Below, in pieces: positions 40,610-46,527 of a DNA stretch of 64,000 nucleotides. The notes below the pieces were generated by a model. The model was not told the DNA's origin. It did not search any database and was given only the letters and a program-made list of their open reading frames with translations. The position numbers and the translations under genes were made by a program. This stretch comes from Paramecium tetraurelia. Taxonomy: Eukaryota; Ciliophora; Oligohymenophorea; Peniculida; Parameciidae. Numbering within the stretch: position 1 is the first letter of the stretch; every line of letters begins with the position of its first letter. Location of the stretch: contig NW_001799200.1 of the NCBI RefSeq assembly GCF_000165425.1, positions 109,784-173,783 of the forward strand, in the 5' to 3' direction.

Positions 40610-43057
40610 ATGTCATAGAATGAAAATGAGATTTATAGGAGAATCAAATTACTGGGAGAAGGGTCTTTTGGAAAGGCATATTTGGTGGAAGTGCATCCAA
40701 GATGGAACTCTTTGTGTAATCAAACAAGTAGATTTAAATTAAATGAAAGAAGATGAAAGAAGAGAAACAATCAAAGAAGCAAGAATTTTAGAAGCTCTGA
40801 GACATCCTAACATAGTTAAATTTAGGGAAGTCTATAAAACAAAAAAGGGTAGGTTATGCATTGTAATGGATTATGCAGATGGTGGTGATTTAAGTAATAA
40901 AATCAAACAGACAGGATCGTGTCTCTTTAGTGAAGTATAGATCCTTGATTGGTTCACATAAATATGTTTAGCAATTAAACATGTTCATGATAGAAAAATC
41001 ATACACAGAGATTTAAAAACCTAAAATATATTTCTGACTCAAGATGGAATAATCAAACTTGGAGATTTTGGAATTGCCAGAGTTTTGAATCACACCAGAG
41101 AAAAGTGCAAGACAATTGTAGGAACTCCCTATTATTTGTCCCCTGAAATCATTGAAAGTAGGGATTACTCATTCAAAACCGATATCTGGTCTTTGGGCAT
41201 TATACTGTATGAACTCTGCGCGCTCAAACCTCCATTTAATGCAGAATCCTTGCATGGATTAGCCCTTAAAATTGTTAGAGGCCAATACAACCCCATTCCT
41301 GACAAATTCTCCACCAACATGAGGTAATTAATCTCTTCCTTGCTCCAAGTTGATCCCAATCGAAGACCCAATATTCATGAAGTCTTGAAGATGTAATTTA
41401 TATTTATCAATTCAGGCCAATCATAGTCAATAGAATCAGAAGTGTCTTATCAGAAAGTATAAGGAATGCAGAGTTTTCCCATACTATTCTTCACAAACAG
41501 AACTTTGTTAATCATAATTTGATAGTCCCATACGATACTGAGTTGAGAAGTGTATGTTCGTAGCCAAACCTTGGTAAAATTTAATAGCAATAACCATTAC
41601 AATAATAATATTAATAATAACAATAGCCAAGCAATTATTTATTGGCATTTAATGCAAGAGGCTAGCCATAAAATAATTTATTAAAACAGAAACAATTATA
41701 TCAATAGCATCTACCATAAGTAAATATCTTATTTAATTTATATTAGAACTATGACTACATATCTAAACCAACTCAACAAAATTATAATCCATATATGAAT
41801 TATCAAAAATACCAATAAAACAAATAATAATAACAACAACCATAATAAATATAACCTTTATAAGTTAATAATAATAGACCTAATATCTCACCATTAAATC
41901 CATAAAGGAATGAAAAATCACCTTATTATGATGATAGATCGCCATTAAGCAAATCACCATTTAATAAAGATGTTAGAGACAAATCTCCCTTTGAAATTTA
42001 AAGAGAATAAGTCAGATAATAAATTAAAAGAAATGAAGAAAAATTTCAATAACTTTAAGAAAATAAAATAAAATACTTATAACCTGATAAGTATGAATTA
42101 CCTAAGCTATCAAGGGAACCATATTCATAACCATAAATCCAATATAAATATTAAAAATAATAATCTGATCCTGTGTCAGTCAAAGACCCAGTTAGATTGG
42201 AACCAATCAATAATAATTAATAACAATAAAAGTCAGAATAATAATAATAGCAAAAAATTGATTTGCAATAAAAAATAGAGCAACAATTACAATCTCAATA
42301 TCCTTCATCTTCTAGAGAACAAAAAGAATAAAGAGATAGTGTGTATCAAGCACCTCAGACTGAAAGAGTATAAGTAGCTCAATACATTTCCCAACCCCCT
42401 CCAACTCAATAATAATAATAAGTTGATCCTATCTAAAAAACTGAATCAGTAAAACCAAGCAAACTACAATTAAAAGAAAGTCAACTAATCCTTTAAGAAA
42501 TAAGAGAAATAAAAAATGATACTAAGGATGATAGAGAAAAGATGAAATAACTAATGGAAATCAAAAGATAAAGAAATAGTAACACATAATCAGAAATCTA
42601 AGAAGTTATTAAGGAAGCATCCAAGAATTCAGACGAATAAGAAGATGAAGCATCTTAATTACTAGCAGAGTTAGAAGATATAGTTATAGCTGCTGAGGGT
42701 GGGGATGTGAAACATTCATAAGTAATTAATGTAGGTGATGGTGATTTAATCAATATGTAACAATCAGTTAGGGAAAGTGTGGACAGAGAGGATGATGAGA
42801 GTTTGGAATAGAAATCAAATGCATCAAATGAAAACGGAGAAAGAGAAAGCTTTTAAGATGATGAAGACATCGTTTGTGAAACTCCTAAAGAATTGCTTTA
42901 TCAATTACTCTTAAGACAAATTGGTTAGGAATAATTGACCAAAGCTTTAAATAAAATATAAAATGCTTATTCCTAGGATTATGTCAATCTAATGCAAAAC
43001 GGCCTAGATGAGTTGTAATAATATAAGGCACTTATATTCATGTATGAATGCATGTGA
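40610..43057 (+). CDS. NEK-family kinase with Gln-rich tail and a +1 frameshift
   Basis: The kinase domain is nearly complete: IKLLGEGSFGKAYLVE, then CIQDGTLCVIKQVDL in another frame, HPNIVKFREVY, IVMDYADGGDLS, IIHRDLKTQNIFL, LGDFGIARVL, TIVGTPYYLSPEII and SLGIILYELCALKPPF. A 23-nt intron near 41396 leads to MPIIVNRIRSVLSESIRNAE and FSHTILHKQ, the usual NEK1/5-type continuation. A Gln/Asn/Pro-rich tail of roughly 500 residues follows, ending in acidic and helical segments. After that intron the span is one nucleotide too long, agreeing with a single extra base near 40690. Either a sequencing error, a programmed shift or recent damage is possible. The rest of the gene looks well kept. Confidence 0.82.
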
Positions 43058-43184: not shown

Positions 43185-45685
43185 TCAAAGTATCACAAAA
43201 CATCTAAAATTATAAAATTTATAAATTACCTCCAAGTTTTATATTTATTAATCTTTATCATTTAATTAATGTATATATTAATTTTTAGATTATTTACTTT
43301 AATTTTAAATTTTATTAGCTTATTGTAAAAATACTTATTAACTCTCTTTAATTTCTTATTCTTAATTCTATGCTTTTTGATTCACAATGATATCATTTAA
43401 TTCATACGATGATTATTATGATATAATATAATCGTTTTATTATTATTATTTCTCGTTTTCATCATGTACAAATGTATAAATAGAAAAATGATCAACTCTA
43501 ACAATAAACTATTACTTTATTTGATCTATTTCTATCAACTCAATATTCTGCTCTTTACATTTTTATTGTAGAAATTTATGTTCAGTCTCGTAATTATCTT
43601 TGTTTATTGTGATTGGAACCTTCAAAGTAATCAAACAGGATTTATTAAGTTTTTTATTAACTTTTGGTTTAAGATATTCATGAATTTGATCTAAATCATA
43701 CACTTCGACCTTTGAATCTTATATATCAACAATTCTATCTAAATTGATATACAATAAGTTTGTTGGAGAATCCCATCTCAATGAACCAAATTCATTAAAG
43801 ATTGTAAAATCTTCAACATTTTTTAATTAATTAATTGTCAATTGATTGATATCTGGTAATGTGTAATATCCTTATTTTGTTAAGATGGGTCTATAAGTTT
43901 ATAGGATTCTAAATGATAGAGTTTGATGATTATCCTAATTATTATTTTCATCAATTATAAATTCACTTTTTTCAAAATAAGCTGCTTTATCACTCTTAAA
44001 GACTTGCATTTAATCTATTTTTTGAAGTATTTTATCTTTAAAATCGATTTTTGATTTAATATCATTAAATTCTTCATTGAATGTTATAAAATTCTCACTT
44101 TCTTCGAAATAGATTTCAATTATATATTCTCTTTTAGATTTAGTTGACTTTTATGAGATTCTGCTTGTAGTAAATCCGCAATTAGATTATGATTAATGTT
44201 GAATACTAATTCTTGAGCTTTTTTAACTGTTGGCTAGATTCAGATTGCTAGAGGAGGGCATTGTTCTAAAGAGAGTGTGAGAATCATTTTTCTTTTTTGG
44301 TAACAAATTGATTTCTTACTACTTCTTTTGTCTTTCAATTCTTTTTTTTTATTCTAGCTAATTGATTAGGTATTCTTGCTCCAAATATTTTTCTTCTTCT
44401 AATTTGTACAATTTTTCCATTTCTTAGATAGAATTATTTAATGTGGTTGTGAAATTGTTAATCATATCTACTGATTGTTTAATAAATTAAATAGGATTCA
44501 TTTAATTTTGGTATTAAATCATTTGCAAATCATTCGATAACATGTTGATAGTATTAACATTTTAAAATGGTTGAAATGGTTATTAAGGCATTTGTAATGG
44601 GTACATTTGTTGTGGTTATTAAAATTATTATTATTAGAACATTAATTATTAAGAATTTTATTATTGTTATTATTAAAATGGTTATTACATGTTATTCATG
44701 AATTATTGTTATGGTTACGAAAAGATTGAAAGAATGTTAGGATTATTATTATTATGATTATTATTACTTTAATTATTGAATAAGTTAGTATCATTATTGG
44801 ACTAGTGTTGATTTGGAATTTAGATTTGCAATTAGGGTTTGTTTTATTAAAATATGTTTCCAGTTTGTGATTATTATTAAGCCCAAGGGAGATTTAAATC
44901 CTTTGACTGATAGTTATTAAATTCAGATTGAGGTTTGTTATTATTAAAAGAACTTTAATTGAAGATGTTTTATGGTTGCTGATCCTATCTAGGATTAGGA
45001 TTTGAGAATATATTGACTGAATTATTAGTGTTCATACTATTGTTTATTGGAGGGGCATTAAAAATATTTCCATATTACTACTTTTATTATTATTACTAAT
45101 TATTTTAATTGTTCATTGAACTGAAAAAATTATTTTATTGTCTATTATCAGTAAGAGAGGAGGAGGCATTTGAATTAAATATATTTTGTTATTGTTAATT
45201 CTAGTTGTTAGATTCCCAAATGGAATTTGAACTTTTTTAAATGGGAAACATAGGTACATTAATGGCTAAAATAACATTTAGATTTACGTTGTCCAGCCAC
45301 TTTCGAAATCAAAGAAGGATTGAATCTTTTGCATTGGATTGCATTTTGAATAGTTGATATATGGAAATCATCAATTTGTTATGCTCTAACCAAATAATAA
45401 TCCTCTAATCTAATCATTATCATTGACTATTATTGTAAGAAATGTTTACCATTTTATCATATTGAGGTTAGAAGATAATTGAAGTAGACAATACGTTTTT
45501 ATCGTCCACAACTTGAATTTTGATTTGTTCAAACTTAGCTCTATATGAACCTTGGACATCACGTTTTCTTTGTGTTCTTAAAATTAACATAAAAAATACT
45601 AAGGAATAGTCCAGGAATTAGAATTGGATTGACTAGTTTAAAATATATTGGAACTGCCATTTCTTTGAAAGAGAGTGTTTGCCAT
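43185..45685 (-). CDS. Nup98-type nucleoporin with NIFN-like repeats
   Basis: Introns of 23, 23 and 22 nt give about 810 residues with a closed frame. The N-terminal part has a GLEBS-like Gle2-binding stretch (MIMIRLEDYYLVRAQQID). The middle is Asn/Gln-rich with SNIFQ, QNIFNS, GNIFNA, VNIFSN, QNIFNQ and GNIFQQ; no GLFG was seen. A helical section follows, then the autoproteolytic domain: RPILTKQGYYTLPD, VEDFTIFNEFGSLRW, NLDRIVDIQDSKVEVYD, LNKSCLITL, and VDHFSIYTF with the HF-S cleavage site near 43483-43488. A Gln-rich tail of about 65 residues follows the site. The C-terminal domain binds the Nup107/Nup96 side of the pore. Confidence 0.87.
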
Positions 45686-45803: not shown

Positions 45804-46256
45804 TCAATATGAGGATTGGGATAAATTCTCATCTAAGGAAGACTTTCTTTTTCTTCCTTTCTTGTTGATATCATTAATATTCAACTTCTTGAAATTCTCT
45901 TCCTTTCTCTTCTATTTTACTAGTTCATTTTTCTTCTTTTTCTCCTATTTCATGGCCTAAAAACTTGATTCAAAATTTCTAATTTCCAACTTATTGTTTT
46001 TCTTATAGGTGTGTACTTTGTTCTAGCTCTCATCAAAAGAGACTTTCCTTTGAAAACCTTCGCTTGCAATTGAATTAGATCTCTTCCGTAGACTAGATGT
46101 CATAGATACTTAATCAAAATCTTATTAACTTTGAGTAGACCTTAATTTCAATGATTCGCCCATGTCAGCACAAGAATCTTCCTTGCTTAATGTAGGTTGT
46201 TCGTCCATTAAAGCAGCTTCCTTTCTTGGCCGCATGGGCGAATCTATATCTTTCAT
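45804..46256 (-). CDS. Basic, phosphosite-rich small protein
   Basis: An uninterrupted ORF of 150 residues starting MKDIDSPMRPRKEAALMDE. It is rich in Lys, Ser and Arg, with RKRSNS, QRKVSFDE and GRKRKSSLDE, which look like basophilic kinase targets, and a Lys/Glu helix (KQEKKKKNELVKQKRKEE). A nuclear protein is plausible from the basic clusters. I do not recognise a family. A longer overlapping reading starting at 46353 (MDFDFPHFSCYL) ends in TGA and cannot be spliced in cleanly, so I start at the later ATG. Confidence 0.65.
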
Positions 46257-46527
46257 TTTCTCTTAGATTGTTTCTTATTGAGGCTGCGAAGGAATCTTTC
46301 TTCTTGTGTATAGATGTTAAATAACAACTAAAATGAGGGAAATCAAAATCCATGACATTGTTGATAATGTTAATTTAATATTAACAGTACCTTCATTTGC
46401 ATCAAATTTTGAACTAAACCTATTAAATAGATGAGTAAATCATACAACAACGATAATAGGACTCCTATCGTCAAAATTACTGAATGTTATTTTTCCATTT
46501 GATTTATATTATTAATATCAATAATAG

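Follow-up and report, generated by a model that had tools for sequence, protein, structure and literature searches.

A gene on the minus strand of the window (i.e. the whole stretch of 64,000 nucleotides of Paramecium tetraurelia DNA analyzed here) encodes a Nup98 nucleoporin of a class with NIF repeats. We put at about 0.6 the probability that its product is located in the pores of the germline micronucleus and that the gene lost its Nup96-position segment after a duplication. The tail deletion is directly visible in this assembly, and the gene apart from its leftover tail is under purifying selection. Micronuclear location, autocleavage and Rae1 binding of the protein are predictions from its sequence.

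The gene extends from an ATG at 45685 to a stop codon ending at 43185, exactly the limits (43185..45685) given in the preliminary description. It is readable solely when TAA and TAG are translated as glutamine (code 6) and three introns of 22-23 nt are removed, which yields four exons and a product of 810 aa. Introns of 22-28 nt occur in the models of the window gene and its three NIF paralogues C228, C2, and C153. Both the code and the introns point to Paramecium, as does a calmodulin gene that matches Paramecium calmodulin at 97%, four TAA codons being counted as stops. From the N to the C terminus, the protein comprises a NIFQ unit, a GLEBS-like motif, a Q/N-rich NIF region, a charged stretch, a conserved segment, the autoproteolytic domain (APD) with HFS, and a short tail. 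The features are as follows:

45600..45685, minus strand: exon 1, with the ATG at 45685 and the first NIF unit (NIFQ, 45641-45649); conserved in C228
45577..45599, minus strand: intron 1, 23 nt, ending in AAG; position shared with C228
45568-45599, minus strand: alternative form of intron 1, 32 nt, frame unchanged
45450..45576, minus strand: exon 2 of the gene model
45427..45449, minus strand: intron 2, 23 nt, GTA..TAG, interrupting the GLEBS-like motif
45388..45479, minus strand: GLEBS-like motif IIFQPQYDKM/SMIMIRLEDYYLV, split by intron 2; predicted Rae1/Gle2-binding site
45288..45426, minus strand: exon 3 of the gene model
45266..45287, minus strand: intron 3, 22 nt, GTA..TAG
44463..45265, minus strand: first part of exon 4, holding the NIF repeats and rich in Q/N
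45185, 45068, 45014, 44969, and 44858 (NIF), 44786 (NLF), and 44729 (SIF), minus strand: high ends of the exon 4 units
44208..44450, minus strand: charged stretch EMEKLYKLEEEKYLEQEYLINQLEQKKRIERQ, helix or coil by eye; conserved in C228
43905..44135, minus strand: conserved segment of ~77 aa preceding the APD, shared by the four NIF paralogues
43473..43874, minus strand: APD (Nucleoporin2, PF04096), a profile match
43482..43490, minus strand: predicted HF/S autocleavage triplet (H710, F711, S712)
43185..43484, minus strand: leftover tail of 99 aa, starting at S712 and ending CFVIL

The protein contains six NIF triplets in its 810 residues (three NIFN, two NIFQ, and one NIFS), together with one NLFN and one SIFS unit. 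Five of the triplets lie in the repeat region (residues 113-385), more than in any of 2,000 shuffles of that region (mean 0.25, maximum 4). GLFG and LFG do not occur anywhere in the protein; FG is absent from residues 113-385, and its single occurrence is located in the APD. These counts bear out the six NIF-type repeats and the lack of GLFG from which the preliminary description had started. Its second element, a GLEBS-like motif, has the pattern Q-QYDKMS-RLEDYY. A profile of the four NIF paralogues aligned with the human GLEBS peptide (hhalign E 7.3e-5, probability 62%, 23 columns), and the match of single N-termini was equalled per 1,000 shuffles by one for the window protein, two for C228, none for C2, two for C153, and 499 for C206, the remaining APD gene of the genome. 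Querying the PDB with this profile returned no match up to E 10. The APD, also claimed beforehand, was confirmed by PF04096 (80.9 bits at a cut-off of 28.4, E 1.3e-22); it ends in HFS, a triplet kept in four of four NIF genes and missing from C206. The segment of 77 aa preceding it has a beta-alpha-beta look by eye, and a beta-grasp fold is possible; a PDB profile search with this segment gave nothing convincing (best E 0.27), and it was not seen in the C206 model.

Searching the 69-Mb genome with PF04096 revealed five APD genes, four of the NIF type and one glycine-rich (C206). The models have lengths of 810 aa (window), 1,223 aa (C228), 1,180 aa (C2), 1,152 aa (C153), and 594 aa (C206); those of C2 and C153 rely on introns beginning with GTT and are less certain than those of the window gene and C228. 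Per whole protein, NIF triplets number six, six, 11, eight, and zero, respectively, and the NIF repeat regions consist of 45-47% N+Q. The repeat region of C206 (L008, minus strand) is 26% glycine, with six FG in 272 residues, three [ST]LFG, and three GLLG; its motifs comprise GLG, GLLG, four LFG, and many GLGTG units, with no strict GLFG and no NIF. The C206 frame stops at FELDQL-stop, short of HFS, and is without a tail. As the presumed macronuclear Nup98, C206 is nearly FG-free and would be an odd barrier protein if it served the macronucleus.

The search for a GLFG-bearing sister, suggested in the preliminary description, thus turned up a NIF-free, glycine-rich gene but no exact GLFG. That description had also taken the window gene for "the" micronucleus-type Nup98 of Paramecium; the gene does belong to a NIF class with a NIF-free sister in the genome, but three further NIF genes exist, and it alone of the four lacks a tail. 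A GLFG pattern at the DNA level, restricted to few codons, had no matches in the genome. With the C206 APD as query, C206, C2, C228, and the window gene were listed, and a second gene of the C206 class was not among them. The C206 repeat matched C206 alone; the same type of search with the C2 NIF repeat matched C2 alone, missing the three known NIF paralogues, and both searches are therefore insensitive. A NIF pattern at the DNA level gave 13 matches vs five for the reversed control, with none of the five Nup98 genes among them, and is therefore uninformative. By chance, this pattern search also turned up a tandem array repeating every 42 bases at C96:36351-36530 of G000 (L022-L025).

An APD tree was constructed from the five APDs of the genome, with three APDs from PDB alignments as the outgroup. 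The four NIF APDs were placed on one side of a branch with UFBoot/SH-aLRT values of 91/89, which is below the starred level of the tree tool, and in 92% of 200 bootstrap trees. The branch leading to the C206 APD is long (~4 changes per column), and its placement is unsure. Identity between the NIF and C206 APDs (17-28%) is below that between the NIF and human APDs (25-34%), indicating that the split between the two classes is old. As the tree covers APDs of this genome and outgroups, the timing of the split relative to Tetrahymena is not readable from it. An alignment-based search for APD relatives reduced 196 pattern matches in genome contigs and 60 in viral contigs to zero in both cases; a PDB profile search listed 31 chains, among which no ciliate was recognized in a table naming molecules, not organisms. 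The distinction between NIF and glycine-rich repeats may be older than both Paramecium and Tetrahymena, a reading that draws on the gene architecture common to both and not on phylogeny.

In animals and fungi, Nup96 follows the cleavage site of Nup98. Tails in the Nup96 position, counted from the S of HFS, are present in three of the four NIF genes (519 aa in C228, 511 aa in C2, and 477 aa in C153) and absent from C206 and the window gene. The three tails have positions in common, e.g. FN-LFG and WW. Pfam and PDB profile searches with the tails returned no Nup96 match; the PF12110 profile had no matches in the genome and likewise none in 14 controls, which makes its result uninformative, and comparison of the tails with two animal Nup96 gave an hhalign E of 0.34 (probability 0.2%). 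Their position, together with the Tetrahymena case, makes the tails candidate Nup96 segments.

In the published Tetrahymena work, MacNup98A and MacNup98B carry GLFG repeats and reside in the macronucleus; MicNup98A and MicNup98B carry NIFN repeats and reside in the micronucleus, and the repeat type affects import of linker histones (PMC4432229, PMC5450191, PMC8421043, PMC4283134). The same sources report that repeat type helps to determine entry to the germline or somatic nucleus (PMC5450191), that no earlier indication of somatic fate than the acquisition of MAC-type pores is known (PMC4432229), and that TtNup96 and MicNup98B form a single transcription unit (PMC5450191). It is conceivable, although we consider it rather unlikely, that the NIF repeats of Paramecium and Tetrahymena have independent origins and do not reflect shared descent: the APD tree spans this genome and outgroups, the gene pairs of each genus could be later duplicates, and the identity between classes is too low for certainty. 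Independent origin would, however, have to repeat the pairing of NIF repeats with Nup96, which adjoins MicNup98B in Tetrahymena and has its counterpart in the Nup96-position tails of Paramecium.

The window gene and C228 are duplicates within one collinear block, since the DNA on both sides aligns, neighbours included, with 82% identity for 48000-43410 and 86% for 43252-41000. Neither this duplicate nor the long tail that the window copy has lost featured in the preliminary description. Upstream of the Nup98 gene lies an open frame of 211 aa (45804-46439, minus strand) ending SSLDENLSQSSY, which is also found beside C228; downstream, a Q-rich open frame (558 aa; 41381-43057, plus strand) runs convergently, and its DNA is likewise kept beside C228. 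Comparison of the two Nup98 genes gave dN/dS values of 0.117 for the whole gene, 0.088 for the GLEBS exons, 0.123 for the NIF region, 0.053 for the 77-aa segment, and 0.048 for the APD; as pairwise values they are means of both branches, at a dS of ~1.2 that is beyond measure in the charged stretch. For the leftover tail, the corresponding value was 0.77 (96 codons, aligned in two pieces). The low values outside the tail and the high one within it indicate that the window gene has been kept, with the stub after HFS nearly free of constraint.

Codons for Asn, Ile, and Phe are AT-rich, and those for Gly are not. NIF might accordingly be a general repeat style of Paramecium produced by AT-rich drift, with NIF proteins in both nuclei and the glycine-rich gene as a side branch, but we regard this as unlikely. 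The excess of NIF genes, four to one, fits such drift and counts against the micronuclear reading, being lopsided if NIF proteins serve small micronuclei only; strict NIFN in just three of the six NIF triplets counts against that reading as well. Drift would also be in line with the N+Q content of the NIF regions (45-47%) and with the six FG in the repeat region of C206, so that the barrier may depend mainly on another protein. NIF-type triplets were conserved between the window gene and C228 at 18 of 21 positions vs 181 of 252 other positions, a difference that is not significant (Fisher p 0.21), so that triplets and spacers are not distinguished in this respect, as drift would have it. Against drift, C206 has retained a repeat region with 26% glycine in the same genome, the whole NIF region is constrained (dN/dS 0.123), and the same split has a known nuclear meaning in Tetrahymena. 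We retain the assignment of the NIF class, and of the window gene with it, to the micronucleus as the most probable one.

Between the two aligned stretches, C228 contains ~1.4 kb and the window ~0.16 kb. Relative to C228, the window gene has lost ~1.25 kb of its tail in frame, with the junction at about 43230-43245, and its frame reaches the same end as that of C228 (LEVIYKFYNFRCFVIL vs SEVIHMIYNYRCFVEL; CFVIL/CFVEL). With the C228 tail as query, C228 and C153 alone were listed; C2 was missed, and the search is thus insensitive to distant copies, but it revealed no other place in the assembly with a close copy of the missing piece. Paramecium removes DNA during macronucleus formation. Both this removal and the use of a single assembly leave room for the missing tail to be an artefact of assembly or genome rearrangement, with an intact Nup96 part residing in the micronuclear genome or lost in assembly; we consider this very unlikely given that the frame continues to the C228 end, that both flanks are collinear, and that the C228 tail search, within its sensitivity, yielded C228 and C153 alone. 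That tail loss left the window copy as a decaying duplicate with little or no function is highly improbable, since the in-frame loss of ~1.25 kb and the near-free leftover tail (dN/dS 0.77, 96 codons) stand against an open frame of 810 codons, a dN/dS of 0.117 (0.048 in the APD), and a kept HFS, even if recent decay would still be compatible with a pairwise dN/dS averaged over both branches at a high dS (1.2).

Under the preferred reading of a micronuclear NIF-class Nup98, the GLEBS of the window protein would hold Rae1/Gle2, and the Q/N-rich NIF region would substitute for cohesive GLFG repeats, altering which receptors the pore favours. The APD would serve as the anchor in the pore scaffold and cut itself at HF/S. 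In C228, C2, and C153, this cut would release Nup96; the window protein, whose gene lost the Nup96-position segment to an in-frame internal deletion after the duplication, would release just a short tail under weak constraint. The window copy would thus be a source of Nup98 but not of Nup96.

More tentatively, the history of these genes could go back to one duplication before the split of the two genera. From a Nup98-Nup96 ancestor, one copy would have become the NIF germline form, and the other, shortened and devoid of the cleavage site, the glycine-rich somatic form. A later NIF duplicate in Paramecium would have dropped Nup96 by internal deletion, possibly allowing separate dosing of germline Nup98 and the scaffold protein Nup96. 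If Paramecium shares both classes, the pore code has an old origin, and five named genes are at hand for testing it in another model ciliate. The link between NIF repeats and Nup96, lost in one duplicate, also offers a natural experiment on the reason why Nup98 and Nup96 share one chain.

A literature search, in which few subscription papers were covered, found no study of Paramecium Nup98, and comparison was made with animal and Tetrahymena proteins. With human and other animal Nup98-Nup96, the window protein shares GLEBS and an APD with HF/S, and C228, C2, and C153 additionally share a tail beyond HFS; unlike the animal proteins, which carry GLFG repeats, the window protein carries NIF. The human GLEBS (residues 159-215 of chain 7f60_C) lies inside the FG domain, whereas the GLEBS-like motif of the window protein precedes nearly all NIF units.

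Among the Tetrahymena proteins, both MicNup98s depart from GLFG/FG repeats as the window protein does. The likeness to MicNup98A lies in the NIFN repeats of the micronuclear class and is one of description, not of sequence. MicNup98B has an APD, with NIF(N) in place of GLFG, and the Nup96-position tails of C228, C2, and C153 match its union with Nup96; the window gene differs in being without a tail and in having strict NIFN in three of six units. C206 resembles MacNup98A and MacNup98B as the NIF-free, glycine-rich class, but the FG domain of MacNup98A contains 42 FG motifs in 666 residues (PMC4283134), as compared with C206, in which strict GLFG is absent and FG occurs six times in 272 residues. 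The best support here for treating the NIF genes of both genera as one class is the link between NIF repeats and Nup96, which is independent of repeat type.
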